The notes beneath the pieces are model-generated. The model saw only the letters and a list, made by a program, of their open reading frames with translations, did not search any database and was not told the origin of the DNA. Shown one piece after another: positions 1-17,130 of a stretch of DNA of 64,000 bases (positions within the stretch are counted from its first letter, which is position 1; each line of letters starts with the position of its first letter). Where the stretch lies: contig NZ_CP086610.1 in the NCBI RefSeq assembly GCF_020883495.1, positions 186,001 to 250,000 on the forward strand. Reading direction: 5' to 3'. A program made the translations under genes and the position numbers. Source of the DNA: Shinella zoogloeoides (GTDB taxonomy: Bacteria; Pseudomonadota; Alphaproteobacteria; Rhizobiales; Rhizobiaceae).

Positions 1-46
1 GGGCCCTTATCGATCCCGATAATCATCGATTATAGGGAGTAAAGTC

Positions 47-388
47 ATGTCATTCAGTCTGAACATTGAAAAAGCAAAACCCTACATGGTGGGTTTCGTT
101 CTTGGCCTCGTGGCTGCGCCGATCATCGCCTTCAATGCGGGATGGGTGTCGACCACCAGCGCGCGTACCGAGGCGGTCAAGACCGCCCGGGTAGAGACTC
201 TTGCTGGCATATGTTCTGCCACGGCCGGTCGCATCGCCACCGCCAGCAGCACCGATCTGGCAACCTATAAGGGATACGAAAACCGCACGAAGCGGGACGA
301 ACTCGTCGCTGCCGCAATGGCCGATATCCAGGTGCCAGCGGATCTTCTCAGCAAGGTCACCTTCGATTGTGGGCGCACCTTGTCCTGA
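47..388 (+). CDS. Small membrane-anchored protein of unknown function
   Basis: The 113-residue product has one hydrophobic segment near residues 13-35 and a polar remainder with two cysteines (one in CSATAG near the middle, one close to the C-terminus). It is probably inner-membrane anchored with the bulk in the periplasm. A ribosome-binding site (GGGAGT) sits about 7 bases before the ATG. I recognise no domain. It stands alone at the window edge, so any upstream partner is not visible. Translation is convincing from start signal and composition; function is unknown. Confidence 0.7.
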   Translation: MSFSLNIEKAKPYMVGFVLGLVAAPIIAFNAGWVSTTSARTEAVKTARVETLAGICSATAGRIATASSTDLATYKGYENRTKRDELVAAAMADIQVPADLLSKVTFDCGRTLS

Positions 389-517
389 CAAGCACTGAAT
401 TCACAAGATGCGAAGCCGGAGGCCTTTTCGCCTTCGGCTTTCGGTTTGACAAAATTCTGAGTATTCAAGCCGGCAGCCGCTCCTGTCGAGCATCTACGAC
501 CAGCATGCCTCCGATTA

Positions 518-712
518 CTAGTTTCGCTTCGGCAATGGCGCAGGACTGGCCATCTCTTTAATCAGGCGGAGCGCGCGCAACTTCTCGGTCTTCTTCTCGC
601 GCGCTGTCGTCTCCTGGTCGATGATCCTCCAGGCGACCAAGTTGGTCTCCGACGCCTTTTTGTCCGCAGTGGTCTTTGTCGGCTTGAAAAACCGTTCGCT
701 ATTCGCTGTCAT
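518..712 (-). CDS. Short basic protein, paralogue of the protein at 16512-16712
   Basis: This 64-residue protein is rich in Lys, Glu and Ala and contains FFKPTK near the N-terminus, TAREKKTEKLRALR in the middle and a PAPLPKR tail. The gene at 16512-16712 encodes a clearly related protein with the same three blocks in the same order. The start is supported by GAAGGAG just upstream of the ATG. It is probably cytosolic and helical. No function is assigned. Having two copies on either side of the accessory region is the notable point. Confidence 0.7.
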   Translation of the reverse strand: MTANSERFFKPTKTTADKKASETNLVAWRIIDQETTAREKKTEKLRALRLIKEMASPAPLPKRN

Positions 713-767
713 CCGTCAACTCCTTCACCCGCAACGACTGATCGTCATCCAGGCGTCCGCTTATCTG

Positions 768-1016
768 TCACGACTGTGATGCGACCACGAAGTCGATGGC
801 GTCCCGAACCGTCAGGAATTCCTCGGCCGGCTCGTCAGGAATGGCGATGCCAAACTCGTCTTCAATGAGCATCACGATTTGGACCACCTCCAAGGAATCA
901 GCGCCCAGGTCATCGACAATTGAAGCGTCATCGACGACCTTCGATTTCTCGACGGCCAACTGTCCGATGATGATGTCTTTCACACGCTCGGCAATATCGG
1001 CTCTTCCGTCTTCCAT
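768..1016 (-). CDS. Acyl carrier protein (divergent paralogue)
   Basis: The 82-residue acidic protein has the acyl carrier protein fold signature: a [13 protein letters not shown] motif whose Ser is the phosphopantetheine attachment site, followed by an [11 protein letters not shown] helix. Length matches AcpP. The reading frame stays open further upstream, but the ATG at 1016 is preferred because the family begins here. No fatty-acid or lipid-A synthesis genes are next to it, and it lies in an IS-rich segment. It is therefore probably an accessory copy serving a specialised acylation rather than housekeeping AcpP. Ser and surrounding residues are intact. Confidence 0.88.
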
Positions 1017-1041
1017 GGCGATGTGTCCTGATGAAGAATAA

Positions 1042-1176
1042 TTACTGGGACGCTGCCGGCTGACGCGACTGGGAGGGATGAAGGCGATCATAGCGGCTCT
1101 GGTCCGGACGGTAGGACCAAACAAAACCAACCGCCAAAACCAAGACGACAAGAATCGCCGTCAGACGATTGGGCAT
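1042..1176 (-). CDS. Possible 44-residue single-span membrane peptide
   Basis: An ATG at 1176 opens a 44-residue frame with one strong hydrophobic segment (about residues 6-23) followed by a short polar, Arg/Ser/Gln-rich tail. It lies immediately upstream of the acyl carrier protein on the same strand, 25 bases away. Small size and lack of a recognisable family make it doubtful. The hydrophobic segment is the only positive evidence. Confidence 0.3.
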
Positions 1177-1303
1177 CGTGGCCACGCGGCGGTGGAACCG
1201 CCCTCGTTTTCCCAAACCTCGACGCCGGCGCGCTGTTCTTGCGCGCGCGCTTTGCGGGATAGAGGATAGTTTCCGGCATCGATCGTCGCCGACTTGATCA
1301 ATC

Positions 1304-1325
1304 GTGAGCGCGACGAACACCCCAC
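1304..1325 (+). repeat. Left terminal inverted repeat of the IS66 element
   Basis: The 22 bases beginning GTGAGCGCGACGAA match the reverse complement of 4430-4451 at 19 positions. They begin with the GTNAGCG typical of IS66-family ends. Confidence 0.75.
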
Positions 1326-1384
1326 CTTTCCTTTTGCGATCGCGGCCGCGAGAACAGCTCCTTCACCGATAGGAGCGGAACGGG

Positions 1385-1855
1385 ATGGTCGAAGATCGCG
1401 CTGATGCCATGCTTGAAGCCATGGATGAAGGCATGCATGAAGCCAGGCATGAGGGAAAGTATCGTCGGATCGAGGTGATCACGGGTCGACGCCAGCGGCG
1501 GAATTGGACCGACGAGGAGAAGGCGCGGATCCTTGCCGAAAGTGCAGAACCTGACGTGAACATCTCGGCGATCGCCCGGCGCTGGGGCGTCAATCGCGGT
1601 CTGCTGAACGTCTGGCGGCGCGAAGCCGGGCTGACCTCTCGACGATCCGCGCAAGCCGGCGCACAGCAGGCCATGTTCGTGCCGGTGACGGTGGTTGGCG
1701 ATAGAACGTCTTGCGAGAACTCGCCGTCGGATGTCGCCCATGACGCCGCGGGGCGTATTGAGATCGAGATTGCTGGCGCGCGTATGACCGTGATCGGCTC
1801 GGTGGCGCCCGAATTGGCGCAGGCGATCGTGGCAACGTTGCGAGCACGCCGGTGA
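1385..1855 (+). CDS. tnpA: IS66 TnpA, helix-turn-helix accessory protein
   Basis: The 156-residue protein has the IS66 Orf1 / transposase_8-type helix-turn-helix: RRNWTDEEKARILAES followed by ISAIARRWGVNRGLLNVWRR around residues 39-85. The C-terminal half is variable, as usual in this family. It is needed for transposition together with TnpB and TnpC. Its stop overlaps the GTG start of tnpB by four bases (GTGA), consistent with translational coupling. The N-terminal 30 residues are Met/Glu/His-rich and may be untranslated if a later start is used. Confidence 0.85.
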   Translation: MVEDRADAMLEAMDEGMHEARHEGKYRRIEVITGRRQRRNWTDEEKARILAESAEPDVNISAIARRWGVNRGLLNVWRREAGLTSRRSAQAGAQQAMFVPVTVVGDRTSCENSPSDVAHDAAGRIEIEIAGARMTVIGSVAPELAQAIVATLRARR

Positions 1856-2208
1856 TTGGACTTTCGCCTGGTGGAGTGAAGATCATGGTGGCGACGCAGC
1901 CGGTCGACTTCCGGCGCGGCATGAATGGGCTTGTTGCGCTGGTGGCGTCAGCGCTTGCAGCTGATCCCTACTGTGGTGACGTGTTCGTGTTCCGCGCCAA
2001 GCGTCTCGATCGCCTGCGCTGCATTTATTGGGACGGATCAGGCATGATCCTGGCGACGAAATGGCTGGAGGCTGGCACGTTCGTTTGGCCACCGATCCGT
2101 GATGGCGCGATGCAGATGAGTAGCCAGGAGTTCTCCCTTTTGCTGGCCGGTATCGACTGGACGCGGGTCAGGCGAAACACCGTAAAGCGGCCAACGAAAG
2201 CAGGCTGA
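1852..2208 (+). CDS. tnpB: IS66 TnpB (Orf2)
   Basis: This is a typical IS66 Orf2 protein of 118 residues. It has the conserved VATQPVDFRRGMNGL motif near the N-terminus, then DVFVFRAKRLDRLRCIYWDGSGM and an LEAGTFVWP block. The start is a GTG that overlaps the tnpA stop. It is an accessory protein essential for IS66 transposition, with unknown biochemistry. Full length, no frameshift. Confidence 0.92.
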   Translation: MIGLSPGGVKIMVATQPVDFRRGMNGLVALVASALAADPYCGDVFVFRAKRLDRLRCIYWDGSGMILATKWLEAGTFVWPPIRDGAMQMSSQEFSLLLAGIDWTRVRRNTVKRPTKAG

Positions 2209-2256
2209 TCCTATTGGATTTGCTTGAAGATTCAGGGTCATGTGCTAGGGTCTGCC

Positions 2257-3831
2257 ATGCCGCTTCGACCCGACCCTTTACCTCAGGATGCCGCGCAATT
2301 GAGCCGAATCATTCTCTCGCTCGATGCAGAGAATGCCGACCTCAAGGCGCGCGTTGCCTTCCTGGAGCGGCAGCTCTTTGGGCCGAAATCGGAGAAGATG
2401 ACGGCGATCGACCCGAAGCAGGCGACGCTTGAGCTTGGCGATCTCAGCGACATTCCCGCGGCGGCCAATGACGATGTTGCACCCGTGGCTGACGGCCGAA
2501 AGCAGGAGCGGCGATCGCCGGCGCGCAACATCGGCCGGTTACCCAGGCATCTCCCACGGTATGAAGAGCTCATCGAGCCGGAGAGCAAGATTTGCCCGTG
2601 CTGCTCGTTCGAGCTGCATTGCATCGGCACGGACGTCAGTGAGGCGCTCGACATCGTGCCGGCGGTTGTCCGGGTGAAGCGGACGATCCGGCCGCGCTAC
2701 GCATGCCGGGCCTGCGAGAGTGCCATTGTGCAAGCGCCAGCGCCGGCGCGTGTGATGGACGGCGGCATGGTGACCACGGCGTTTGCCGCCCATGTCGCCG
2801 TTTCGAAGTTCGCCTGGCATTTGCCGCTTCATCGCCAGGCGCAGATGCTTGCCTCCTGCGGCGTGATCATCGATCGCGGCACGCTCGGGGCCTGGGTGAC
2901 GCGGGTCGCCTGGTGGCTTGAGCTTCTCTATGACGCGCTGCTTGCCTTCATCCGCTCCCAGCCAAGGGTGTTCTGTGATGAGACGCCGCTCCCGCGGCTT
3001 GATCCGGGGCGTAAGCGAACCAAGGTCTGCCAACTTTGGGCGCAGGCGGTCGACGATCGGCCATGGAATGGTCCGGCGCCGCCGGCGGTGGCCTATACTT
3101 TTGCCGAAAGCCGCAGCGCGCGCGAGGTCGAGGGGCAATTGTCGTCGTTTGCCGGCGTGCTCCAGGTCGATGGGTACCAAGCCTATAAAACCTTGGCCAA
3201 GCGCCGGGGGAGGAGCAATGTCGCTCCCATGCGGCTGGCCTTCTGCCTTGCCCATGCCCGACGCAAGTTCGTCGAAATCGTCAAGATGACCGGGTCTGCT
3301 GAGGCCCTGTCGATCCTTGCCAGGATTGCCGAGCTCTATCGGATCGAAGCGAAACTGCGCGGCGAAAATGCCGATACCCGGCTCACGGTGCGGCGTCGCG
3401 AGGCAGCGCCCATCATGAGCGAACTGAAGGCCCAGCTCACCGAACTGAGCGACGAGGTGTCGTCGAAATCGGCGCTTGGCAAGGCCGTCACCTACACGCT
3501 CAACCACTGGAACGGACTGGCAGCCTTCCTGGAGGATGGCCGGATCGAAGTGGACTCCAATGTGGTCGAGCGTTCGATGAAATCGGTGGCTCTGACGAGG
3601 AAGAACTCGTTGTTCGTGGGCAGCGAACGCGGTGGCAAGACGTTCGCGGTCCTCGCATCGCTCGTCAACACGGCAAAGCTCAATAGTGTAGACCCCGAAG
3701 CTTGGCTTGCCGACGTGCTCGAGCGCATCATCTCCGGCAAGGTGACCGCGAACCAGATGGATACGCTCTTTCCATGGACCTGGAAGGCCAACCGCGAGAG
3801 CATTGCAGATCAGGAGCGACGGGCGGCATGA
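2257..3831 (+). CDS. tnpC: IS66 TnpC transposase
   Basis: This is the main DDE-type transposase, about 524 residues. In order it has an N-terminal coiled coil (LDAENADLKARVAFLERQLFG), a zinc-finger segment with CPCC and CRAC pairs, the IS66 catalytic domain beginning around FCDETPLPRLDPG, and the C-terminal block DSNVVERSMKSVALTRKNS. The frame is open upstream to 2224, but the ATG at 2257 has an AGGG and fits the family N-terminus better. The stop overlaps the next gene's ATG (ATGA). It appears intact. Confidence 0.92.
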   Translation: MPLRPDPLPQDAAQLSRIILSLDAENADLKARVAFLERQLFGPKSEKMTAIDPKQATLELGDLSDIPAAANDDVAPVADGRKQERRSPARNIGRLPRHLPRYEELIEPESKICPCCSFELHCIGTDVSEALDIVPAVVRVKRTIRPRYACRACESAIVQAPAPARVMDGGMVTTAFAAHVAVSKFAWHLPLHRQAQMLASCGVIIDRGTLGAWVTRVAWWLELLYDALLAFIRSQPRVFCDETPLPRLDPGRKRTKVCQLWAQAVDDRPWNGPAPPAVAYTFAESRSAREVEGQLSSFAGVLQVDGYQAYKTLAKRRGRSNVAPMRLAFCLAHARRKFVEIVKMTGSAEALSILARIAELYRIEAKLRGENADTRLTVRRREAAPIMSELKAQLTELSDEVSSKSALGKAVTYTLNHWNGLAAFLEDGRIEVDSNVVERSMKSVALTRKNSLFVGSERGGKTFAVLASLVNTAKLNSVDPEAWLADVLERIISGKVTANQMDTLFPWTWKANRESIADQERRAA

Positions 3832-4391
3832 CACAGAACAGCCAAGGGGCTACGGCACGACCGAAGCTCGATGACGAGGCGTTCGAGGCGTTTATCAGGG
3901 CACGCCGTCCAGTCTCGCCGATCTGGTCGATGAGCGGCCTCGACGGCTATCTCACGGCTCTCATCATCGGCCCGAGGTTTATCGACCCGCGTCAGTGGAT
4001 CCCGGAGCTGACTGGCCCGGATGCCCTGAACCTGCCAATGGAAACAACCGAGCATCGAGCCGTCCAGACCATCGTTGCGGAATACAACCGGATATCGGCA
4101 AGCCTCGCCGAAACGCCGAAAGATCATCGGCCCAGGTTCACCAAGATCGATGATCAAACCTTTGATCCCTTCGCTTGGGACCTCTGCTTTCTATTGGGAA
4201 CAAGGTACGCGCCCAAGCTTTGGCAGCCCGTCCTTGGAGGTCATGCCGTCACTGGGGATATCGTCGCGCCCATCCGCAAGCTCGGCGAGGCAAAACGGAA
4301 CGCGACCCGTCAGGATGCCGTTGCCGTCGCCGAAGCGCTCGTCAAGATCCGAGCCTATTTTATGCCGAAGCGGGCAAAGCAAAAGTTCTGA
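3828..4391 (+). CDS. UPF0149/YecA-like passenger protein inside the IS66 element
   Basis: The 187-residue protein contains the UPF0149-like segment ARRPVSPIWSMSGLDGYLTALI and a FDPFAWDLCFLLGTRYA block. The ATG overlaps the tnpC stop, so it is translationally coupled to the transposase. It lies upstream of the right inverted repeat at 4430-4451, so it travels with the element. It lacks an evident SEC-C zinc motif at the C-terminus, which many YecA proteins have. Function within transposition is unknown; a passenger or regulatory role is inference. Confidence 0.75.
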   Translation: MTQNSQGATARPKLDDEAFEAFIRARRPVSPIWSMSGLDGYLTALIIGPRFIDPRQWIPELTGPDALNLPMETTEHRAVQTIVAEYNRISASLAETPKDHRPRFTKIDDQTFDPFAWDLCFLLGTRYAPKLWQPVLGGHAVTGDIVAPIRKLGEAKRNATRQDAVAVAEALVKIRAYFMPKRAKQKF

Positions 4392-4429
4392 CCGACAGCC
4401 GGAAGCCTATTCAGTCAATCACGGAAGCC

Positions 4430-4451
4430 GTGGGCTCTTCGTTGCGCTCAC
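4430..4451 (-). repeat. Right terminal inverted repeat of the IS66 element
   Basis: Read on the minus strand from 4451, this begins GTGAGCGCAACGAA and mirrors 1304-1325 with three mismatches in 22. It marks the abrupt junction with the IS3-family remnant. Confidence 0.75.
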
Positions 4452-5218
4452 GCAGCGTCTACTATCTGCCTCGTCCGGTGTCTGACGGCGATCTGGCCCT
4501 TATGCGCCGGATTGACGAATTGCATCTCGACTACCCCTTTGCCGGAAGTCGGATGTTGCAAGGGCTCTTGAGAGGAGAAGGTCTGGAGACCGGGCGGCGA
4601 CACGTCGCCACGCTGATGAAGAAGATGGGCATCGAGGCGATCTACCGCCGCCCGAACACCTCGAAACCAGCGCCAGGGCACAAAATTTATCCCTACCTCC
4701 TACGAAAGCTGGCAGTCACCCGGCCCAATCAGGTCTGGGCAATGGACCTGACCTACATCCCCATGGCGCGGGGATTTGTCTATCTGTGCGCCGTCGTGGA
4801 CTGGTTCAGCCGGAAGGTCTTGTCATGGCGGTTGTCGATCACGATGGAAGCAGCCTTCTGCATCGAGGCGGTGGAGGAGGCACTTGCCCGTCATGGCAGG
4901 CCGGAAATCTTCAATACCGACCAGGGATCGCAGTTCACCTCCATCGACTTCACCGCCGTGCTGAAGAGGTCACAGATCGCCATCTCGATGGATGGCAAGG
5001 GTGCGTGGCGAGACAATGTCTTCGTCGAGCGGCTCTGGCGTTCGATCAAATACGAGGAAGTCTACCTCCATGCCTACAAGACTGTGTCCGAGGCACGCGC
5101 TGGCATCGGCCGATATCTGAACTTCTACAACACCAGACGCCCACATTCATCCCTTGACCGGCGGACGCCGGATCAGGCCTACTTCAACGCGCTGACACCA
5201 ATGATGGTGGCGGCATAA
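4452..5218 (+). pseudogene. IS3-family transposase OrfB, 5'-truncated
   Basis: The recognisable part starts at SVYYLPRP and continues through the IS3 OrfB HTH_21-like segment (RRIDELHLDYPFAGSRML) and the integrase core. The three catalytic acidic residues are present: D in VWAMDLTYIP, D in FNTDQGSQF and E in DNVFVERLWRS. The natural N-terminus and orfA are gone, so the open frame that runs upstream into the IS66 element is an artefact of the fusion. It is probably not functional. Confidence 0.85.
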
Positions 5219-5280
5219 TCGAGGCGGAAATCCACTTAGCGAAACGCCCGAAGCTGTTCAGACAAACCGAGCCACCTCTC
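4452..5280 (+). mobile_element. Truncated IS3-family insertion sequence (right part only)
   Basis: Only most of orfB and the right end remain. The left part, including orfA and about the first 25 codons of orfB, is missing exactly at the IS66 right end. The right end, estimated within a few bases of 5275-5280, contains the stretch CTGTTCAGACAAACCGAGCC, which resembles the terminal repeat of rhizobial IS3 elements. It forms the artificial 3' end of the neighbouring polymerase gene. The exact right boundary cannot be fixed because the left partner repeat is gone. Confidence 0.7.
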
Positions 5281-7074
5281 GTCGAGATGACGGCGAGCTG
5301 CTCGAAACGATTTGAACAACTCACCGCTGGTAGCCGTTTCGATATCTTGGTCGCTGGCATTTGAGAGGAAGCCATCGGTTGTCACGCTGAAAACATCTAC
5401 ATGTTCGGCAAAGCCGTTGAGAATTTCGCCGAGGACCGCCCTTGTATATGACGTGATGAACGATGCGAAATATGGCTGTGTGATCTTGCTCGGCGGAAGC
5501 GCTTCCATTCCATCGTCTTGTAGGTTGTATACCCGCTTTTCGCGAAGGCCCTGTGCCGTCTTTCCGTAAGTGCTGTTTCCCACCTCTTTCCAGAACAGGT
5601 TGTCAAAAGTCCCCTTCGGATGCGCCATGCGCTTTTCGATGCTGGTTTTGATGAAGTCCCTGAAAGCCGGATGATGGCAATTGGTTGGGACGTGTACACC
5701 CTTACGGAATGTCAATCGTGCGCCGAGCTTCTTGGCCAGGTACAGCTCCGGCGCAGCGCATTTCGAGTTTCCTTTGCGAGGAAAGATAATCCCATTGGCC
5801 GTACGAACAGGCAGTGTCGGAAAGCGTACAGACTGCGGGAATTCAAAATCCACCGAGAAGAAGCTGAGATCGTGCGGCCCAACGTCGTCAAGGTCTATCA
5901 GATTGGTGATGTTATCCCAGTCAGGCATGCCGATTAATGACATTGCCGTCGTGTATGCCGAACTGAGGTCGTGATCCCGCCACTCACCTTCATCTGCAAT
6001 GCCGAAAATGAACTGTTCGTTCCGGCCGCCGTGATAGGTCTCCGTGATGAACGCCTCGTTGAAATATGCCTCCTCCTTCAGCGGCGTCACGATCTTGGTT
6101 TTGAAATAGCCGTCCTTCTTGCTGAAGATTTTCTCTTTGACGGTCTCGCGCCCCAGGATTTGGTTGCCGTCCAAACCTTTTTGTTGCCATCCCTGAAGCA
6201 GGAGTTTTGTCCCAAAGGAGGTTAAGGTTGCCGGCATTTTGAACGATGTGAAAAGCGTCTGACTCTGCTGAATGATACGCTCGGCAAAGCGGACGCACAC
6301 TTGAGCATCACGGATTGCATACTCGCGGAATTCGCTCCATCGCTCCCTACGAAAGCGCGCCATGTTCTCCTTGATTTCCTTGTCTTCCTGCGGGGTTTTG
6401 CCGAGTTGAATCTTTGGGAAGCCAAGAAGATCACCAATACCTGCCAGGGATTTCGCGTTGCTCGGTGCAAGCAGAATGGTATCGCGGACAACGACGTTGA
6501 ACTCTGCAATCGCTGTATCAGCCTCGCCAAACTTTACGGAAATTGCGCTGTCGATGCTGACGAATGTGCTTCTGACGTTGGAAGTCAGCCGCGCATTGTC
6601 CTTGAAGTCGCTGAATGCGGGAAAGTCAGCCCGGATAAAATGGCCGAGAAGGTAGATGGAATTCGGCAACTTCAGATCGGGGAATTTCTCGATCAGTGAG
6701 CCGATAGCAAAGCCCACAAATTCGCTGAAGGTTAAGCGTTGATCCTCATCGGGAATAATAATCCCGTCAGCTTCAGGTGTTTCAGCCTGTGCGTCTTTGG
6801 TGATCAGCTTGATTGAAAACTGGTAGGAAAGAAGCTCGTTTTTTGCACCCGCTTCAATGGTGCTCTCCAGTTCGTTGTCAGCTACCGACTGATATTCGGT
6901 GTCGAAACCGATGAGGAGATGAGCGTTTGGCTCTTTCTTTCGCCGCTGTTTTTTGCCGGCGACAGGAGGCTCAGAAATATTCTGGCTTTGAATGGTGACG
7001 GTCTTCTTCTTGCCGCCGTGATCGTCAGGCTCGATCTTGAAGGTGAATTCTTTCGCAAGCGTGGACTTATGCAT
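5236..7074 (-). pseudogene. Family B DNA polymerase (protein-primed / piPolB-like), 3'-truncated by an IS3 element
   Basis: The 612-residue open frame has the family B polymerase motifs in order. A 3'-5' exonuclease domain has FDTEY (D58, E60), GHFIRADF (D150) and YAIRD (Y252, D256). A YHGG motif (347-350) links the two domains. Motif A is DLSSAYTTAM (D369), motif B is KEVGNSTYG (K496), and a motif C-like element reads TTDG (D567). The canonical first Asp of motif C is Thr here. The last 12 or so residues are encoded by the end of an IS3 element, so the rest of the palm and the thumb are missing. The start has a good GGGAG site. A divergent tyrosine recombinase follows 143 bases away. The short spacing between motifs resembles the viral/organellar/plasmid group, which includes pipolin polymerases; subgroup is inference. 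Confidence 0.8.
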
Positions 7075-7095
7075 CTACTCCCTTTCTAGAGTTGA

Positions 7096-7127
7096 CCACA
7101 TCGAGGTGTGGGGAGCGACGATATAAT
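7096..7127 (+). promoter_or_regulatory. Possible promoter and operator between polymerase and recombinase
   Basis: The 143-base divergent spacer contains a perfect TATAAT at 7122-7127, about 90 bases before the recombinase ATG. Just upstream is the inverted repeat CCACATCGAGGTGTGG at 7096-7111. No well-spaced -35 hexamer is visible: the TTGACC at 7092 is 24 bases away. A repressor site overlapping a promoter is a reasonable guess only. Confidence 0.35.
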
Positions 7128-7217
7128 CCTAAAGGCGTCCTCATGCAAGTTCGCGTTGTGGCGTTGAGCAATGCCCTGTGTCGGCGGGACAATCCCGTTG
7201 TTGCGAAAAGGGAGCCT

Positions 7218-8306
7218 ATGTCACTTGTAAAGCGTGGAAATTCCAAATTCTGGTATGTGCAGTTCCAGATTGATCGTCAAACGATAGTCCGTTCGACAAA
7301 GACGACCGACCGCAAGGTTGCCGAACAGGTCGCGGCGAAGATTCGCGCTGATGTCCACGCTGAACTGCTGCTCGGCAAAAAGGAGCTTATCACGCTAGAG
7401 ACGGCGCTTCGTCGGTTTGCGAACACGAAGGCTGGAACCGCGAACTACCGCAATCTGAAAAGCCAGATCAGGATCATTCTGAGAACTATCGACTGCTCGA
7501 TTCCGCTGCCGAAGGTCAATTCCGACACGCTGGAACAGTTTCGGCAAAAGCGTTTGTCCCAGGGATGCGGGTCGCAGACGATCAAGCACGGAATGAACTG
7601 TTTGATGGGAGCGATCCGACTTGCTCGAAAAGACGGCTATCAATGTCCGTCAGTCGACGCCCCCTTGATTAGAACAGCAAATTCCAGAGTGCGGTATCTG
7701 AGCGTTGAGGAGGAACGACGCCTCCTGCGTGAGTTGGATCCGACGCGCGTGGCCAATGGTCTATCTGCTGAACCTGCCCGTCGAGCTGATCGCCAGAAAT
7801 GGATGCAGGACAATTATGATCTGGTGATCATGCTGATCGACACCGGCGCGCGCTATAGCGAAATCGCCAATATCGCTTGGAAGGATATCGATCTGAATGG
7901 CGGTGAAATACGTCTATGGCGCTCCAAGGTTCAAAACGAAAGCGTGATCTATATGACGGACCGGGTGGAAATAATCCTTCGCCGCCGCAGAAGGGAGAGC
8001 AACGGTCTGACCGTCTTTGCCAACAAGGCGGGGGAGAGGCGGGGATACTCGGCGATTGCCATCCGCAAGGCGTTCCGTCGCGCGGGCCTTGATGATTGTA
8101 CGATCCACACGCTTCGCCATACGCACGCAACGCGCCTTGTTCAAAACGGGCTGTCAATCCAAGAGGTCAAGGCCGTGCTCGGTCACACCGATATCCGAAC
8201 GACAATGCGATATGCCCATCTTGAGCAGACCGTTGTTACCCGCAAAGCGCGTGACATCGTGAATGCCCTCAACGCTGCCAATTTCTCTGCTGAAGGTAGA
8301 GCGTAA
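7218..8306 (+). CDS. Tyrosine recombinase / integrase
   Basis: The protein of 362 residues is a phage-type site-specific recombinase. The catalytic set is visible: R212 in TGARYSE, H297 and R300 in HTLRHTH, H323 in LGHTD and the nucleophile Y332 in MRYAHL. An N-terminal SAM-like core-binding domain spans about residues 60-150. The ATG at 7218 is chosen over the open frame from 7092 because AAGGGAG lies directly upstream. It is divergent from the polymerase gene, suggesting both belonged to one integrative element. No att repeat could be identified. It appears intact. Confidence 0.92.
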   Translation: MSLVKRGNSKFWYVQFQIDRQTIVRSTKTTDRKVAEQVAAKIRADVHAELLLGKKELITLETALRRFANTKAGTANYRNLKSQIRIILRTIDCSIPLPKVNSDTLEQFRQKRLSQGCGSQTIKHGMNCLMGAIRLARKDGYQCPSVDAPLIRTANSRVRYLSVEEERRLLRELDPTRVANGLSAEPARRADRQKWMQDNYDLVIMLIDTGARYSEIANIAWKDIDLNGGEIRLWRSKVQNESVIYMTDRVEIILRRRRRESNGLTVFANKAGERRGYSAIAIRKAFRRAGLDDCTIHTLRHTHATRLVQNGLSIQEVKAVLGHTDIRTTMRYAHLEQTVVTRKARDIVNALNAANFSAEGRA

Positions 8307-8476
8307 GCCTCTCAAGCTTATGGCCCAGCGTAAGAAGCCCCGGGAATTTGGGTGGTTCATTGTGCGGCCAAAAGCTCTGGTACGACTTCCTGAGTTTCCC
8401 ATCGTCTGGATGATAGGTATTCGCGCTTGGCATGCTTCTGTTGACGGTTTTTGCTTGAGACGTGAGGGCTTCGGTC

Positions 8477-8902
8477 ATGATGGATACCGATGATTTCGAC
8501 TGCCACTTTCGCCGTGCCGTTTCTCATGATGTGGAGCAGCTTGACCGAATTCTCCACAAGGCCGTGTTGGAGATATACGGAGGATTTGAAACTGGCCGTC
8601 CTTTTGTCGCGCAGCCTCTCTTTTCGGAAATCGCCATCGTGGGATCGGAGATAATCGGAGTTGCTGCGTTTTCGGACGAGGTGCTGACCTGTCTCTATGT
8701 CGTTGACCGTTTCAGAAATTCAGGCGTTGGAACATGCCTTTTACATAACGCGATGCTCTCTGGTGTAAGGGCTACAACGATCCCGCTTTCAAACGTGTGG
8801 GGGCAGGCGTTCTTTGAGCATAGAGGTTGGTCTACTAGAGGAGAGATCGAGGCCAAAATCTTTGGTGCAAAAACGCGGGTCGTTGCGCTGTCCTTTGGAT
8901 AA
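8477..8902 (+). CDS. GNAT-family N-acetyltransferase
   Basis: The protein of about 141 residues has the GNAT pattern: a strand ending CLYVVDRFRNSGVGTCLL, where the R-x-x-G-x-G/A-like loop binds acetyl-CoA, and a late NVWGQAFFEHRGWS segment typical of the family C-terminus. Two adjacent ATGs (8477, 8480) follow a GAGGG site; a GTG at 8462 is possible. The substrate is unknown. It lies 170 bases downstream of the recombinase, so it may be element cargo. Confidence 0.75.
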   Translation: MMDTDDFDCHFRRAVSHDVEQLDRILHKAVLEIYGGFETGRPFVAQPLFSEIAIVGSEIIGVAAFSDEVLTCLYVVDRFRNSGVGTCLLHNAMLSGVRATTIPLSNVWGQAFFEHRGWSTRGEIEAKIFGAKTRVVALSFG

Positions 8903-9511
8903 GAAAATTCGTTCTGAATTGAGATTTTTAGCCGGTAGATGATGCTGGATTCCTAAATATCCAACATAGGTTCGAACTATTTACCTTACGGCTATCCTCT
9001 GCGTTTTTACTCGACTCGCTTCCAACCTCTATTCTACTTTCCGGTGGAGTTATATTCCTATGTCAAAAATAAAATATGATATAAAAATCAAACAATAATT
9101 ATAGAAATGGTTATAAAATACATGAATTCCAAAGAATATAATAATTCCATCATTGATTGGATCAGTGGTATTATAAAAGAAAAGTACGTACTAAGAAAAT
9201 CAGAATACGAAACGTTTGAAGCGTTTTTAACGTTAAATGCTTACTTCATCACGTTTGAGTTCGATCAAAATACGATAAATCAAAAGTACGTCCAAAGCGA
9301 AGATCGTGCACCCATAGGCTCCATCGAGATGAAGCAATTCAGCAATATATACAATATGATGTGCAGGGAGAATTTTGGAAGAAACTACAATAAGATTCCC
9401 GATGAAGCCAAGCCTTTAGCAGTAGCCTGCATCGATGCAAATGGCTCTCGTTATTGGAGGGAGCTGGGTGATGTCGAAAATGTACACATTCATTCAATAT
9501 GGATAATGGAT

Positions 9512-9516
9512 GTAGA
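9512..9516 (+). repeat. Target-site duplication GTAGA, left copy
   Basis: GTAGA directly precedes the IS2-like left end. The same 5-mer follows the right end at 10834-10838. Five bases is the usual duplication for the IS2 group. Confidence 0.85.
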
Positions 9517-9545
9517 TGGAGTTGCCCCATAAAAACCGGCCAGGA

Positions 9546-10376
9546 TCAGATTTCTGTTTGACGGTTTAAGAACTCACGCGGGGATCGATATCCCAAAGCC
9601 TTGTGCGGGTGAAGGGTGTTATAGTGCTCGAACCACAATGGCAGTTGGGCGATGACGGTTTCTGCGTCGGGAATGGGATTGACCGAGACGTAGTCGCGCT
9701 TGAATGTTTTGACAAAGGCTTCGGCCATTCCGTTGGACTGAGGGCTGCGAACCGGCGTCGTGCAAGGCTCCATTCCGATGTCCATCAGCAGCGATTTAGT
9801 GTCCTTTGCAATGAAGCACGAGCCGTTGTCGGTGAGCCATTCAATCGGCTTGGGAAGGGTGTTGATGCGACCGAAGCGGTTCTCGACTGCTGTGATGACA
9901 AGGTCCTGAACGTCTTCGCTCTTGATGCCTTGGGTGGTTGCGACATGGGCGATGGCTTCACGATCACAGCAGTCGAGAGCAAAGGCAACGCGGACCTTCT
10001 CTCTGTTGTCGCAGCCAATTTCGAAGCCGTCGGAACACCAACGCAGGTTCGAGTGCTCCACGGCAACACGGCCGTCATGGCGACGGCTATCAATGGCACC
10101 TGTGTGGCGTTGGAGAAGCATGCCGTGCACCTTCATCACCCGATAGACGCGTTTAGCGTTCGGCCATGGGCGGCTTTCGCTGCGGGCTCTACGACGTAAG
10201 ATCGCGTGAACCCGGCGATATCCGTAGGTCGGCATCTCGGAGATGATCGCTTTGATTTCATCAACGAGATCATCATCCGCGAGCGGCGGCCGACCACGGG
10301 CTTTGGAAGGACGCTGTTTCACTCGCTCAGCCATGTTTGACCGGGCAACACCAAAAGTCTCGCACACAGCAGTCAT
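9546..10376 (-). CDS. IS2-like transposase OrfB
   Basis: The 276-residue protein is an IS3-family integrase core. It has the HTH_21-like segment [14 protein letters not shown] and the DDE residues in [20 protein letters not shown] and [12 protein letters not shown]. The ATG overlaps the orfA stop, the arrangement used for programmed -1 frameshifting to make the OrfAB fusion transposase. It is full length. Confidence 0.9.
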
Positions 10377-10765
10377 CGGGAACTTCCCTTCGGCAACGAC
10401 AGCGAGCGCAACAGGTGTTTTTTTGGGCCTGTGGCGATCTCAAGCGCCTCTTTGAGAATCTCGCCTTCCATCGTCTTCTTACCAAGCAGACGCTGCAACT
10501 CTTTCACCTGGTTTTGAAGGGCACGATATTCGGACGCCGGGACAACATCCTCCTCCGCAGCCGTGGCCGTCAGAGCGCCTTGAGTAGCGAGCTTACGCCA
10601 GGTGAACAACTGGTTCGGCTGAATGCCATAGCGGCGAGCAACAATGCTCACCGTAGCATCCGGCTCATATGTCTCCTGAATGATGGCAAGCTTCTCTGCC
10701 GTCGACCAGCGACGGCGGCGCTCAGGACCGGACAGGACTTCCATCTTCGGATTGTGACTAGTCAT
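10373..10765 (-). CDS. IS2-like transposase OrfA
   Basis: The protein of about 130 residues starts at an ATG preceded by AGGTAATG. It resembles IS2 OrfA, with [23 protein letters not shown], a helix-turn-helix ending NQLFTWRK, and the leucine-zipper-like [20 protein letters not shown]. It binds the element ends and regulates transposition. A GTG at 10786 would give a slightly longer form. Confidence 0.88.
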
Positions 10766-11081
10766 AATGGGCACATTACCTCGCACACTTACTAAGTGGG
10801 AGATCCTGTCCAGATATTTATGGGGCCATTACAGTAGAGGAAAAATCCTGTTTCGATATTTTTGTATCAAAGGCGAGAGAGAAGAGTTCTTTTGATATCA
10901 AATATGTAGATATACAGAAGTATACGGGTGACGTCGAAAAAGTAATATCTTATACATTTAAGTTCGATAAATTCGCCCGTGGAAGCGTAGATATCGGGTC
11001 CACATTCAGCATTTTTCCGAAGCGGAAATGATGTTGTATTCTTCCATATAACTCTAATTTAGATGTTTGGCTGATTTTGGT

Positions 11082-11348
11082 TCAGCCGCTCGTTTTCTTT
11101 CGTCCGGGTTTCAGCGGGCGTGGTTTGGCTTCAATATCAAGAGGCTGAACAAATAATTCAGAAATGTGCACTTCGAGTGCGTTGGCTAGTCGGGCGAGGA
11201 TTGCAACAGTTGGGTTGCGTTTCCCTCTCTCCAGATACCCAACATATGCCCGTTCGACCTCGGCGATCAAAGCCAAATCGTCCTGAGAAATTTTGCGCTC
11301 AACACGCAATCTCCTGAGATTCCAGCCGACGAGCTCTTGCACTTCCAT
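11082..11348 (-). CDS. XRE-family helix-turn-helix regulator
   Basis: The small 88-residue DNA-binding protein has a Cro/C1-type helix-turn-helix: LRRLRVERKISQDDLALIAEV, then YVGYLERGKRNPTVAILARLANAL. A basic tail (KPGRKKTSG) follows. The ATG at 11348 is preferred to an upstream TTG. It lies convergent to the split AT-rich gene and divergent from the zinc-ribbon gene. It could be an island regulator, but no operator is evident. Confidence 0.88.
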   Translation of the reverse strand: MEVQELVGWNLRRLRVERKISQDDLALIAEVERAYVGYLERGKRNPTVAILARLANALEVHISELFVQPLDIEAKPRPLKPGRKKTSG

Positions 11349-11443
11349 GTGCAACAGCAATCACTTGCGCTTGAATAAAACCACGTAATATAGGACCATA
11401 AATTGAAGGCGAGATTGCAGCTCGCTATAACGTGGAGAACGCA

Positions 11444-11782
11444 ATGCAAGAGACCCCATCGGTGGCGACGATCGAATGCCCGTACTGCTCGGAAGTGATC
11501 AATGCGAAGTCGAGGAAGTGCCGTCACTGCGGTGAAATTCTCGACCCTCAAATGCGGGAGCTTGAGCTTCTGAAATCGCAACGGAACAGCCCGAACGTGT
11601 TTATGAATGCCGGGGGTGCAGCGGCGGCGGCATCGTCCGCATCGTCTTCCGGCGGTGAGGGGAGCCTGTTGCGCCGTTTTCCGCATTGGATTCACATCCT
11701 CATTGCCATCGTGACGGGCGGGCTTTGGTTCCCGGTATACCTGTTGATGTACCTGTTCAGGAACAAACGGTATTACTATTGA
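11444..11782 (+). CDS. Zinc-ribbon membrane protein
   Basis: The 112-residue protein starts at the ATG at 11444, preceded by GGAG. It has an N-terminal zinc ribbon (CPYCSEVI and CRHCGEIL, about residues 14-33), an Ala/Gly/Ser-rich linker, and a hydrophobic C-terminal segment (IHILIAIVTGGLWFPVYLL) ending in an aromatic-basic tail. It is probably inner-membrane with the ribbon in the cytosol. Function unknown; divergent from the XRE regulator. Confidence 0.75.
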   Translation: MQETPSVATIECPYCSEVINAKSRKCRHCGEILDPQMRELELLKSQRNSPNVFMNAGGAAAAASSASSSGGEGSLLRRFPHWIHILIAIVTGGLWFPVYLLMYLFRNKRYYY

Positions 11783-12551
11783 GGGTCGATATCACCCGTT
11801 GAATGGATCGCTTGCGTCGTGGATGCCGTAGTCCATGGTTCTACAAAATGGATTGCAAGAGAGCGTCAAACTTTCCCCATTACCCGATCTGATTGAGCAT
11901 ATTGCCGGTGAGTTTGCTCCAGCTGTCATGGCGATTTGGGGGAGGTTTGATGTTGGCGAATATGTGATGGCAACATCAACTCAACGTCACGTTTGGCATG
12001 CGGCTCTTGCTGCGGGCGACGATTTTCTGCTGACGAGTAAATGGTTGACCCGAAACAGGCTGAAGGTGATCCTCAAACGAGCTTACGGGAACTATCCATC
12101 AGGCATGGTTCGTTTGCTTTCAAGGCTCGGACCTCGTGCGGAAACGAGGGAATTCTATCGTGCCGCACATGTGGCGCTTAGTCGTGGGGATATGCTGACG
12201 AGGATTTTGCAGCATTCAAAAACGATTGATCCTCACGTTGTTTTTGCGATTGCTGAATTGCCAACTGATTTGATCAGCGTTCGGATGGCCAGCTATGCTC
12301 TGAGGCGAGGCGTTTCCTCTGATGAAATTGCTGAAATGTCATGGTTGGTAAGGCGAATTGTCGAAGTATCTGCGTCAACGGCCGTTCTGAATTTGCTGGC
12401 CAGTTCCAAAAATCCGGTGCTCACGGTGCGCAAGGCAATTACCCAACTTCCGTTTCCCGCTGCGCCATGGAAGGCGGAGGGATTGATCCCAGTACAATCG
12501 GCGGAGGAGCTTTGAACCGCCCCGGCTTTACCGGAGACCGTTTGGCTTAAG

Positions 12552-13457
12552 TTATGCGGCCATGGCTGGTGCGTCCAGCATGGCGTAGTATCGTTCTTCG
12601 GCCTCGGCTGGCGGTATGTTGCCGATGGGCTCCAGAAGGCGGCGGTTGTTGAACCAATCGACCCATTCGAGCGTGGCGAACTCCACGGCTTCGAAGTTGC
12701 GCCATGGTCCTCGCCGATGGATGACCTCGGCCTTGTAAAGACCGTTGATCGTTTCGGCGAGAGCATTGTCGTAACTATCACCAACGCTTCCGACAGACGG
12801 CTCGATGCCTGCCTCCGCCAGCCGTTCGGAATAGCGAATGGATACGTATTGCGAGCCGCGGTCGGAATGATGAACCAGCCCACTGCGTTTGACGGGCCGC
12901 CGATCATGAAGCGCCTGGTCGAGGGCATCAAGCAAAAAGCCCGCATGGGCCGCCCGGCTTGCCCGCCAACCCACGATACGGCGAGCGAAGGCATCAATGA
13001 CGAAGGCCACGTAAACGAAGCCCTGCCAAGTCGCGACATAGGTGAAATCGGATAACCACAGCATGTTCGGCGCGGGAGCGAAGAACTGTCGGTTCACCCG
13101 GTCTAGCGGGCATGGAGCGGACTTGTCCGACACGGTGGTTTTGACTGGCTTGCCGCGAATGACGCCTTGAAGCCCCATCATTCTCATAAGCCGAGCGACG
13201 GTGCAGCGGGCAACGTCGTAACCTTCTCGCTGCAACTGCCGCCAGACTTTGCGCACGCCATAGACCTGGAAGTTCTCGTTGAACACCCGGCGTATCTCGA
13301 TCTTCAGGGCCATGTCGCGTCGGGTGCGGGCCGATAGGCGGTCCACGTCCGTGCGTTTGGCAACGACCTCATAGTAGGTGGACGGGGCAATCGGCAGCAG
13401 CCTGCAGATCGGCTCGACCCCGAGCACCGAGCGGTGTGCATCGATGAAGGAAATCAT
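12552..13457 (-). CDS. IS3-family transposase OrfB
   Basis: The 301-residue protein has an HTH_21-like N-terminal part ([18 protein letters not shown]) and an rve integrase core with D in [11 protein letters not shown] in [11 protein letters not shown] and E in [13 protein letters not shown]. The ATG overlaps the orfA stop by four bases, compatible with a -1 frameshift fusion. It is full length, with a typical [10 protein letters not shown] end. Confidence 0.92.
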
Positions 13458-13783
13458 CGCTTCAGTGGGCGGTCGAGCTCCGCCTGGGCAAAATACGCAG
13501 AGGCCTTGCGTAAAATCTCATTCGCCTGACGAAGCTCCCGGTTCTCCCGCTCCAAAGCCTTTATCTTCTCCGCCACGTCACTCGGCAAACCTGCACGCTT
13601 GCCGCTGTCGACCTCGGCCTTCTTCACCCATTCATTGAGCGTATGCGCCGAGCAACCGATCTTGGCCGCTATGGAAGATACAGCCGCCCACCGGGAAGGA
13701 TGTTCGGCTTCATGATCGGCCACCATTCGAACGGCGCGGGCGCGGACTTCAGAAGAAAATTTGTTCGTCGTCTTGCTTGTCAT
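13454..13783 (-). CDS. IS3-family transposase OrfA
   Basis: The 109-residue protein is a transposase_8 type. It has a helix-turn-helix ([20 protein letters not shown]) and a C-terminal coiled coil ([22 protein letters not shown]) that mediates OrfA/OrfAB dimers. It starts just inside the right end of the element. Intact. Confidence 0.92.
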
Positions 13784-14177
13784 AGACCCTACTTCTCACG
13801 AGTTGGGGTCTCCGGCAAAGCCGGGGCGGTTCACTTTCCCAAATGGCTCGTCGTTTAAGGAACTGCTTGAGCGACCACGATATTTTCTACTCGTCTTGTC
13901 TCGATGTTCAGGCCGGAATTGCATTCTATTTCGTTACAGCGGGATCGAAGCCGTTGCTGCTGAAGTTCACCAAGTTTGGGGGGCTTGGTTGGTATCTTGA
14001 TGAATGTCGTGGGGAAGGGAACCGTCATCCGATAGCGGAAGAACTTGAGCACATCGCCGATATTCATTCGGATATCGAGGGCGTGTGGTGCCGAAGGCTG
14101 AGCTATGAAATGCGGTAAGGGAATTCGGATTCCTAGCGGGAACCTCAAAGACCGTGACAACAAGGGAAGGATATGAG

Positions 14178-14777
14178 GTGTTCAAGATAGCCGCCAACCT
14201 GAACCGCTGGACCCTTACTATATTAATGGCCGCAATCCCTGTTGCCGCCACGGCGTCCGATCGGGTGCCTATTGATGACGGAGCATATCTGGATAGGAAG
14301 GATTGCGATCTGGCCGAGCGCGGTGAACTCGATTTGGTGTCATTCACGATTGGAAAGGCCGGGCGGGAAGTTTCATTTGAAGAAGCTGGATGTCTCGTCG
14401 CCAACGTGAAACCCGTCCGTGCAAATCGATATGACATTGAACTGGATTGCCGGGAGTTTGAGGATGTGTACCGGCACCGGATGTTCCTTGACGTTATAGC
14501 CAAAGACCATATCCGGGTTGATGGTGACGACCGTTATCTCTGCAAAAAGGGGTTCCTCGCTGACGGGCCTTCCGCCTCCGACCCTGCTGCTTCGGTGAAT
14601 GCTCTCATCGAGAAATGGGAAGGGCTAAACGAGAATTGCCGTGGTGGAAGCGGTGATGATCCCAGTACAATAAAAGAATGTAATCAAAGGACCGGAGTTT
14701 CCGAGCGCTTGGAAGCTCTCGGATATTGCTATGGCGGCGAAGCTACTGTCACATCGGAATGGAGGAGGTGTGAATAA
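14178..14777 (+). CDS. Secreted protein of unknown function
   Basis: A GTG at 14178 with GGAAGG about 8 bases upstream begins a 199-residue protein whose first 30 residues form a signal peptide (hydrophobic core WTLTILMAAIPVAATA, cleavage near ATA/SD). The mature protein is acidic and has several cysteines (KDCDL, AGCL, LDCRE, LCKKG, ENCRG, KECNQ, GYCYG, RRCE), suggesting disulfides in the periplasm. The C-terminal IEKWEGLNENCRG segment looks like a small separate domain. No family is recognised. A GTG at 14154 is a less likely start. Confidence 0.72.
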   Translation: MFKIAANLNRWTLTILMAAIPVAATASDRVPIDDGAYLDRKDCDLAERGELDLVSFTIGKAGREVSFEEAGCLVANVKPVRANRYDIELDCREFEDVYRHRMFLDVIAKDHIRVDGDDRYLCKKGFLADGPSASDPAASVNALIEKWEGLNENCRGGSGDDPSTIKECNQRTGVSERLEALGYCYGGEATVTSEWRRCE

Positions 14778-15132
14778 CGCGGATCATCGAGCTCACCAAA
14801 TCGCAGCGGTAGGCTGATGCCGCCTCGCGTTTTCAGTTCTGCCCCCACACTTTTGTTGCCTCGATCACCTTTCGGTAGGCAGGCCAAGGCCTGCATGAGT
14901 GACCGGACGCGATCAGTTGAACAACTGGCCGCAAATCGCTTGCTTCATGTCCCCGCTTCACGCTTCATTTTGTTCTTGAGCGATGGTCTAGGCTGGCATA
15001 TCGCCGGCCTCACTTCATCCGGCAAAATGCCGGATAGACCGGCACTATGCGGCTTTCTGTCGGCATATTGTCGGCAGGCAATCGGGGGCCTCGAATTGCC
15101 GATGAACGGGTGATCCGCGAGGCGAATTGCCC

Positions 15133-15194
15133 GAGCTGGCGGGCGCTCATCATGCCGAGGCCGGTCGAGTGCCCGGAGGACCGGCTCGGTTGAC
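15133..15194 (+). repeat. Diverged direct repeat, copy A
   Basis: This segment matches 16866-16929 over about 60 bases. It includes the identical 18-mer GGCGCTCATCATGCCGAG (15142-15159) and shared GACCGGCT and TTGAC blocks downstream. Neither copy sits in a supported gene. Purpose unknown. Confidence 0.6.
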
Positions 15195-15530
15195 CGTATC
15201 CCGTCGGGAATCTTCCACGGCTCCAGCTTCGGTCGTATGGGTAGTAATTGATGCCAGGATGCCGGAATCTGGTGGTGCTTTTATAAAGCTCATCGAAAAA
15301 TCGCCCGTCTTCTAAAATTAATACCCAATATTATTTCTCGCTAGCCCGCTGTTTCCTTGAGAAAAAACAGGATTTTCCCTGCTGGGTTGTGCGATGGAAT
15401 CCGTTATTTTTCTTGCAAAATACGTGGATTTCACTATATTGCTGCTATCGAACTTTGCTTGTGACCTTTGTCTTCGCCCTAGCGGCCCGGTCGGATCTCC
15501 TCTCATCGTCGATTTATATGGGCTGCCAAC

Positions 15531-15549
15531 CGGGCAGCCTCACCAACGG
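15531..15549 (+). promoter_or_regulatory. Hairpin in the cspA leader
   Basis: GGCTGCC-AACCG-GGCAGCC forms a perfect 7-bp stem directly before the AAAGGAAA ribosome-binding site of cspA. Long structured leaders are known to control cold-shock mRNAs. A thermosensing or stability role for this one is inference. Confidence 0.5.
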
Positions 15550-15565
15550 TTGAAAGGAAATCGTT

Positions 15566-15775
15566 ATGAATTCAGGCACTGTAAAGTGGTTCAACAGCAC
15601 CAAGGGCTTCGGTTTCATCGCTCCCGATGACGGCGCGACGGACGTGTTCGTCCATATTTCGGCGGTTGAGCGCGCCGGCCTTCGTTCCCTCGCCGAGGGC
15701 CAGAAGGTAAGCTTCGACATCGTGCAGGACCGCAAGTCCGGCAAGAGCTCCGCAGACAACCTGCGCGCTGCATAA
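15566..15775 (+). CDS. cspA: Cold-shock protein CspA family
   Basis: The 69-residue protein is a single cold-shock domain with RNA-binding motifs KGFGFI (RNP1) and VFVHIS (RNP2). It is an RNA chaperone acting in the cytosol. Length and sequence are typical of rhizobial CspA. It is preceded by a long AT-rich leader and a strong ribosome-binding site, and followed by a rho-independent terminator, so it is probably monocistronic. Confidence 0.95.
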
Positions 15776-15841
15776 GGAATTGTCGTCCCTCTTCGCTGAC
15801 CACGGATGTACTGGCAGCGTCGATGGCGAGCGACGGGAAGA

Positions 15842-15870
15842 GGTCGGGTCAATCCCGGCCTTTTTGTTTT
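15842..15870 (+). terminator. Rho-independent terminator after cspA
   Basis: GGTCGGG-TCAAT-CCCGGCC (with one G-T pair) forms a 7-bp stem and is followed by TTTTTGTTTT. Confidence 0.85.
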
Positions 15871-15903
15871 CAGACAAGATGCGATGTGCGGAAGGGACTG
15901 GCC

Positions 15904-16191
15904 ATGAGCCGGGTAATCTACGCTGTCGGCGATACCGTCAGGCTTAAGCCTGACCTGTTCCGCCGGGCAGAAGGTGGCGGAATTTGCCGGATCGCGGGAA
16001 TTCTGCCTTCCGATCACGGAGAGGTGCAGTATCGCGTGCGTCTCGGCAACGAAACGTTCGAGCGCCGCATCCTGGCGAGCGATATCGACGCGCCGGAGGC
16101 AATGGCGGCGCGCTCCGCTGCGGGATTGCATCCATCGGCGGGTGGCAAGGAGCCTTGGTTCAAGCCATCCACCATTCGGACCAGAAAGTAA
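15904..16191 (+). CDS. Hypothetical protein downstream of cspA
   Basis: The 95-residue protein starts at an ATG preceded by GGAAGGGA. Its front half (VGDTVRLKPDLFRRAEGG, then HGEVQYRVRLGNETFERRIL) looks like a small beta-barrel of the type found in rhizobial conserved hypothetical proteins; the tail is Ala/Ser/Lys-rich. It is separated from cspA by a terminator. The function is unknown. Confidence 0.75.
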   Translation: MSRVIYAVGDTVRLKPDLFRRAEGGGICRIAGILPSDHGEVQYRVRLGNETFERRILASDIDAPEAMAARSAAGLHPSAGGKEPWFKPSTIRTRK

Positions 16192-16232
16192 TCGAGTGAT
16201 GTAGCGGCAAGGCCGCTCGGAAAGGACATGAC

Positions 16233-16478: not shown

Positions 16479-16511
16479 CGGTAGCGCGCTACGGAACAAG
16501 GGAGTGAACGA

Positions 16512-16712: not shown

Positions 16713-16865
16713 AAATCGGTGTCCTGGAGGGGGCCTTCTTCTATTGGCGGGGCCGTCCATGTCGGCCCGCCAAGCGGTGATCCGTTAGCTCTGTGGTTGA
16801 CATGTCGGTCTTGGCAAGCCGTGGTCAATCATCGGGCGATTTCTGGGTAAGGCGGCGAGCCGCCC

Positions 16866-16929
16866 GAAGCGCTGCAGGCGCTCATCATGCCGAGACTGAT
16901 CGAACGCTCGGACGACCGGCTGGCTTGAC
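16866..16929 (+). repeat. Diverged direct repeat, copy B
   Basis: This is the second copy of the repeat at 15133-15194, with the exact 18-mer at 16877-16894. It lies 44 bases before tRNA-Gly. Confidence 0.6.
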
Positions 16930-16973
16930 ACATCTCGCGAACTGTTGAATGACTGCGGCCTCGGCGCTGCCCT

Positions 16974-17047
16974 GCGGGTATGATGTAATGGTAGCCTGTC
17001 AGCTTCCCAAGCTGAACGCGCGGGTTCGATTCCCGCTACCCGCTCCA
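16974..17047 (+). tRNA. tRNA-Gly (anticodon CCC)
   Basis: The acceptor stem is GCGGGTA / TACCCGC, and CCA is encoded at 17045-17047. The anticodon stem is TCAGC / GCTGA with loop TTCCCAA, giving anticodon CCC. The T arm contains GGTTCGATTCC. All four arms pair. It reads GGG codons. It could serve as an integration target, but no duplicated 3' end is visible in the window. Confidence 0.93.
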
Positions 17048-17130
17048 GCCGCCTCTCTTTCCATCCATGTCTGGAATTGCTGCCTGCCGGAGACCGGCGG
17101 CGCGCTTTCCCTTGTGCATTGCGCAAAATA

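Follow-up and report, generated by a model that had tools for sequence, protein, structure and literature searches.

A 64,000-nucleotide stretch of the Shinella zoogloeoides chromosome (contig NZ_CP086610.1, positions 186,001 to 250,000; termed here the window, and numbered from its first letter) very probably harbours a degraded pipolin, integrated into the anticodon part of a tRNA-Gly(CCC) gene. Pipolins are defined by a gene for a primer-independent family B DNA polymerase (piPolB), and are often found at tRNA genes together with attachment (att) repeats and tyrosine recombinases (PMC9710591; PMC7385651). The original prediction, made from sequence alone, had proposed such a link for a family B polymerase (PolB) gene adjoining a recombinase gene, and the link is now supported by the polymerase tree, by recurrent pairing of the two genes, and by att repeats with corresponding empty sites. 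Because the definition fits and Alphaproteobacteria are already among the published examples (PMC9710591, Fig. 3 legend), we consider the element a new pipolin member, in the form of a remnant.

A truncated, probably primer-independent polymerase

The polymerase, the recombinase and their immediate surroundings are as follows (motif positions from alignment with reference enzymes):

4452..5280, plus strand: end of an IS3-type insertion sequence (IS) abutting the polymerase break; rve domain; homology to positions 14515-13684 of locus L030
5281..7074, minus strand: truncated piPolB gene, 598 codons from the start, with motifs ExoI-III, YxGG, A, B and a TTDG motif C; C-terminal third, from the TRG motif onward, lost
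5371-5382, minus strand: motif C, TTDG
5560-5577, minus strand: motif B
5953-5970, minus strand: motif A
6022-6036, minus strand: YHGG (YxGG motif)
6304-6321, minus strand: ExoIII
6613-6645, minus strand: ExoII
6892-6909, minus strand: ExoI
7075..7217, no strand: intergenic region between the polymerase and recombinase start codons, 143 base pairs (bp), equal in length in sibling locus L045
7218..8306, plus strand: tyrosine recombinase, 362 amino acids (aa), intact, head-to-head with PolB; PF00589, E 5.8e-27

The polymerase open reading frame (ORF; 7074..5236, minus strand, 612 aa) matches Pfam family DNA_pol_B_2 (PF03175, E 1.3e-6) and two PHROG DNA polymerase families (E 2.9e-8 and 4e-8), and every motif originally read in it aligns with those of reference enzymes. 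The compact chain that had also been claimed is instead a truncation: homology ends after residue 598 (position 5281), the last 14 residues of the ORF being the IS3-type end, whereas the six nearest homologues (83-91% identical) measure 880-892 aa, and the others listed are mostly 830-945 aa with some shorter pieces. The break can be placed to the base, with homology to L045, a metagenomic sibling, beginning at 5281 and homology to an IS3-type element in L030 ending at 5280. A search of the genome with complete P0001 returned residues 1-599 only and so did not recover the missing third. A KTRG-type motif is a mark of piPolBs, and the lost part contains the corresponding TR[GV] motif, present in the alignment in all 14 intact piPolB-side rows. 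The window thus lacks a complete piPolB gene, its copy being cut at codon 598, for which reason we file the element as a remnant; the reading frame is open in L045. Ratios of nonsynonymous to synonymous substitution rates relative to this sibling (0.10 for the polymerase, 0.05 for the recombinase) argue that neither ORF exists by chance.

In a tree of 32 sequences that spans piPolB-side, protein-primed and RNA-primed enzymes, the window polymerase falls on the piPolB side, away from protein-primed and RNA-primed PolBs (split 100/99) and not within a cellular or phage clade never found with recombinases. Its companions on that side include the PolBs of pipolin-type islands of E. coli and of plasmids pSE-12228-03 and pLME300, which presumably account for species that PMC9710591 names. 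The best tree also holds an uninformative split that joins rhizobial and protein-primed rows (41/93, not starred). Motif C reads TTDG in 14 of 15 piPolB-side rows, as opposed to DTDS in all four protein-primed rows, and the window polymerase has the motif C without its first Asp that is described for pipolins in PMC7544198; it has neither the position in the protein-primed clade nor the DTD motif C of protein-primed enzymes.

Integration at tRNA-Gly(CCC)

The insertion site is delimited by the following features:

16854..17011, plus strand: attR, a 158-bp direct repeat identical at 155 of 158 positions to attL (-3797..-3640, outside the window)
16974..17047, plus strand: tRNA-Gly(CCC), the target gene, its first 38 nucleotides inside the repeat
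15121..15194, plus strand: decayed third copy of the upstream part of att, 79%, lying between the PolB cassette and one that contains a cold-shock-like gene (read by eye)

The two att copies, 20.65 kilobases (kb) apart, have the form that pipolin descriptions give as att-like direct repeats, often at a tRNA gene (PMC9710591; PMC7385651), and the first 38 nucleotides of the tRNA gene (16974-17011) recur at positions 16324-16361 of locus L013. When the region was shuffled 200 times in two-base blocks, no shuffle yielded an exact direct repeat of at least 20 nucleotides. The repeat ends in the anticodon loop, where CAGCTT-CCC-AAGCTG forms an inverted repeat that we infer to be of the type used as a core by tyrosine recombinases. 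Because it sits on the 5' side of the tRNA gene, the element must supply both the gene's upstream region and its 5' half, which would explain why the repeat is so long. Six congeners were compared: two (G310 and G298) are contiguous through the repeat and represent empty sites, and two more (G299 and G308) are likewise free of the element on the tRNA's 5' side; both show small indels, and G308 additionally has a 16.6-kb insert on the 3' side. The fifth, G311, contains a related island with the N-terminal part of the recombinase and no PolB in the 19.9 kb examined, and the stretch examined for the sixth, G312, was without the tRNA.

The sibling locus L045 belongs to metagenomic contig G1046, which encodes an intact PolB of 892 aa in a gene order similar to that of the window, and in which att and the tRNA are 100% identical over 194 bases and the decayed third att copy is also present. 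Window positions 14226-17047 match this contig at 99.97%, and the match stops at the last base of the tRNA; because a terminase small subunit gene (PF03592) follows, we regard the DNA past the tRNA as phage DNA. Within this contig (L073, 2823-9075), the terminase-bearing DNA starts at the 3' end of tRNA-Gly, which may explain why the contig is listed in IMG/VR.

Recurrent pairing of polymerase and recombinase

The recombinase ORF opens at a TTG (7092), and homology to relatives begins at the ATG at 7218; with the start placed there, the gap to the polymerase is 143 bp, just as had been predicted for an intact recombinase beside it. The R, K, HxxR, H and Y blocks, whose roles in such enzymes are established, are all present. 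Across the polymerase's clade, the recombinase adjoins PolB in seven of the eight loci with usable 5' context (window counted), and in six of these eight the genes are head-to-head (window, L045, L002, L003, L004 and L052). In L005 it lies upstream, about 1 kb from PolB and in the same orientation, and in L014 it is absent. The count leaves out L015 (PolB cut by the contig end), L030 (a stretch without PolB) and second entries of a genome already counted (L008 and L056 with L004; L043 with L052), as well as loci outside the clade, which were scanned for the recombinase. Intact PolBs next to a recombinase therefore exist in Rhizobiales, and nothing pointed to the window's recombinase as part of an unrelated integrated element. 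A tyrosine recombinase is also what integrated pipolins carry (PMC7385651). A second fragment of the recombinase (residues 261-362, 97%) occurs at L013 19099-19404 (window -901..-596), left over from a further copy of the element in the island.

A rhizobial pipolin had been expected to be noteworthy, and elements in Rhizobiales were indeed found, although alphaproteobacterial pipolins are already in print (PMC9710591). Our literature coverage, which is incomplete enough that an earlier report is possible, returned only that paper for Alphaproteobacteria and nothing for Shinella or Ochrobactrum. Among the genomes searched (own genome included), PolB matches occur in 5/297 of the family, 2/397 of the order and 4/398 of the phylum. 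As a yardstick of frequency, the PolB DNA of G921 matches 287 of 5,426 complete E. coli genomes; in seven, the match covers 80% or more of the query.

Relatives in comM and comparison with known elements

Relatives in a different site include two elements that split comM near codon 36, one in a Rhizobiales isolate (AFS055504, L002; ~14.9 kb) and one in Brucella grignonensis (L003; ~14.2 kb). Like the window, they carry a head-to-head PolB-recombinase pair (PolB 84%, recombinase 82-83% identical); they differ in their site, in their size, in defence-like cargo, and in a large serine recombinase (Resolvase, Recombinase and zinc-ribbon domains) at the comM edge. Both also carry a 117-aa gene. Beyond the element, comM continues to codon 510 in L003, and the match ends at codon 77 in L002; L004 has the same gene order, adjoining a comM fragment that starts at codon 212. 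Defence models matched a cytosine-methylase protein and, weakly, its restriction-type neighbour in L002, PDC-S46 in L003, a capP-like and a beta-protein in L045 and PDC-S54 in L052, and gave no match for two of the ten cargo proteins scanned. No close relative of the comM-type serine recombinase occurs in G000 (the window's own genome), G311 or G1046, the best matches (24-26%) lying elsewhere in the chromosome. The junctions of the comM elements (L002 4-15121; L003 659-16420) have no long direct repeat in common. As a site for the window element itself, comM was rejected: the host gene is intact (523 aa) and elsewhere.

The E. coli islands used as references (L059, strain KTa005; L060, strain HCM-25C-3) resemble the window in a PolB with a TTDG motif C and TRG, in tyrosine recombinases, in a tRNA-linked island and in restriction-type genes. 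Their tRNA-Leu, however, stands beside a second integrase, and the enzyme we label XerC-like lies on PolB's strand rather than head-to-head; neither recombinase is orthologous to that of the window (21-33% over partial lengths), which is nearer to the one labelled IntS-like (~30% over 193 aa). Plasmids pSE-12228-03, pLME300 and, by similarity, Fusobacterium pKCOM1250 also have PolBs on the piPolB side, 20-25% identical to P0003 in the alignment, but are plasmids with relaxase genes and show no tyrosine recombinase in the stretches examined (all 8.0 kb; 7.5 of 19.4 kb; all 13.9 kb).

Alternative explanations

One alternative, which we consider rather unlikely, accepts the pipolin and holds that a different, now lost integrase brought the island to tRNA-Gly, the PolB-recombinase pair being a module in which the recombinase serves to resolve multimers or to excise no more than the module itself. 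The E. coli islands have two recombinases, of which the tRNA-adjacent one differs from the one near PolB, and the second recombinase fragment in L013 shows layered insertions. Moreover, the recombinase lies inside the element, some 8.7 kb away from the tRNA and not at an end, and the comM relatives retain an 82-83% identical enzyme despite the serine recombinase at their edge, such that it may serve another role. These last two points also count against our own interpretation, as do several others: G278 has the PolB and no tyrosine recombinase in 19 kb; the tree does not settle the branching order of piPolB subgroups, and many of its reference branches are long; and the E. coli islands count as pipolins by what they contain (PolB, a pair of tyrosine recombinases, restriction genes and tRNA, which fits PMC7385651), their records naming only a DNA polymerase. 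The original pairing claim is also weaker than first stated in that the window's enzyme and the E. coli XerC-like one are not orthologues (21% over 136 aa). Against a lost integrase, a tyrosine-recombinase profile run over window positions 1-20000 found only the 7218..8306 enzyme, and the other island ORFs, read by eye, are transposases or small genes. Furthermore, the recombinase occurs in two of 21 genomes of the genus (G000 and G311), both times in an island at tRNA-Gly(CCC), an association that the metagenomic sibling repeats.

It is highly improbable that the polymerase is protein-primed, like that of phi29, and derives from a linear plasmid or a phage relic. The phi29 polymerase is the nearest solved structure (a PDB sequence search gave no PolB match with a single sequence or a profile), and the PF03175 model spans both groups, with a far stronger match to phi29 (1.3e-110 versus ~1e-6); the tree position, the motif C and the TR[GV] in place of the phage region all separate the window's lineage from it, and the att structure is typical of circular integration. 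A casposon or other PolB transposon, likewise an integrative element carrying a PolB, can be dismissed, given the long att repeats at a tRNA and the absence of Cas1 from all four genomes or records (nine of 14 control genomes being positive).

A candidate nicking protein

Between the recombinase and the tRNA lies a gene split by an insertion. Its versions measure 200-228 aa in L002, L014, L030 and L045, and the frame in L003 is longer:

9107..9532, plus strand: HUH-like protein, N-terminal part (FITFEF, HIHS), broken by the IS
9546..10786, minus strand: IS3-type insertion inside the HUH-like gene, two transposase ORFs
10843..11019, plus strand: C-terminal part of the HUH-like gene (YTFK)
L002 1811-2413: HUH-like gene copy
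L014 9219-9905: HUH-like gene copy
L030 12573-13175: HUH-like gene copy
L045 4610-5212: HUH-like gene copy

Three divergent subgroups of the protein have three blocks in common, T-x-F, H[IL]HS and Y-x-x-K, which we take to be the HUH endonuclease pattern. The family is rare: in a large database, nine proteins match at an E value of 1e-3 or lower, and one of these is the query itself. Pfam found no family in P0122 or the L014 version, Pfam, PHROGs and NCBIfam found nothing in the window's N-terminal piece, and L004 and L052 gave no match to the protein. In L014, the gene adjoins PolB divergently. Given that an AlphaFold model from a 9-row alignment reached a pLDDT of 36.8 and that the reading draws on three sequence blocks, we hypothesize that the split gene (9107-9532 and 10843-11019) may encode an HUH-type protein. 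A limited literature search found no print record of such a gene, or of insertion into comM, for pipolins.

Proposed mechanism

Before its decay, the element would have encoded a primer-independent family B DNA polymerase. Its own tyrosine recombinase probably carried out the insertion and would be able to release the element in circular form, in which case the repeat would restore the upstream region and 5' half of the tRNA gene; the piPolB, judging from its family, would prime and copy the circle, and the HUH-like protein may nick the element. ISs entered later, one IS3-type end replacing the last third of the polymerase. Because of this replacement the window copy cannot make a full polymerase, and any replication would depend on one supplied from elsewhere. 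The recombinase gene has stayed intact. It is possible, if on balance doubtful, that the Rhizobiales pipolins form a distinct lineage built as a swappable platform. Its core would be a piPolB and a tyrosine recombinase arranged head-to-head, accompanied by an undescribed nicking protein of HUH type (motif 1, HUH, YxxK) and by an integration module that can be exchanged, giving insertion at either tRNA-Gly or comM. In this two-protein replication scheme, nicking of the excised circle would fall to the HUH protein, and priming and copying of the displaced strand to the piPolB, with no primase needed.

The movement of pipolins and their reason for carrying a polymerase that primes itself are open questions: the role of piPolB is still unclear, and att-mediated movement awaits in vivo confirmation (PMC9710591). 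The present clade offers close relatives in two sites, empty sites as controls, a single tRNA at which one copy is intact and another broken, and a protein that may be the nicking partner, which makes integration and replication directly testable. The pipolin kind was known; this branch adds two insertion modes and a companion gene that may aid copying.

Other genes and minor observations

The remaining genes of the island are the following:

8462..8902, plus strand: GNAT-like gene; Pfam match below cut-off; 66% nucleotide match in L045
11082..11360, minus strand: xre-type regulator, common to L030 and L045
11432..11782, plus strand: small zinc-ribbon-like gene, common to L030 and L045; Pfam matches below cut-off
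11835..12515, plus strand: N-terminal part of a 320-aa protein, no Pfam family, broken by an IS3-type insertion
12552..13783, minus strand: IS3-type insertion, two transposase ORFs
14154..14777, plus strand: 207-aa gene, no Pfam family, common to L030 and L045

Between the left att and the polymerase break (window 1385-4391) lie an IS66 element with three ORFs and then a UPF0149-like gene. Elsewhere, a Pseudosulfitobacter plasmid (L041, 2694-9362) carries a PolB of the same kind that is split by an IS66 element and adjoins a site-specific integrase, near mobC/relaxase genes, and an IMG/VR contig (L046, 9572-12604 and 14457-17447) has two nearby polymerase genes of the piPolB side, with neighbours that appear phage-like by eye. 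Finally, a C-terminal PolB fragment (L055, 9500-10090; E 1.1e-12) stands beside a tRNA-Leu in G905, and is possibly another pipolin remnant.
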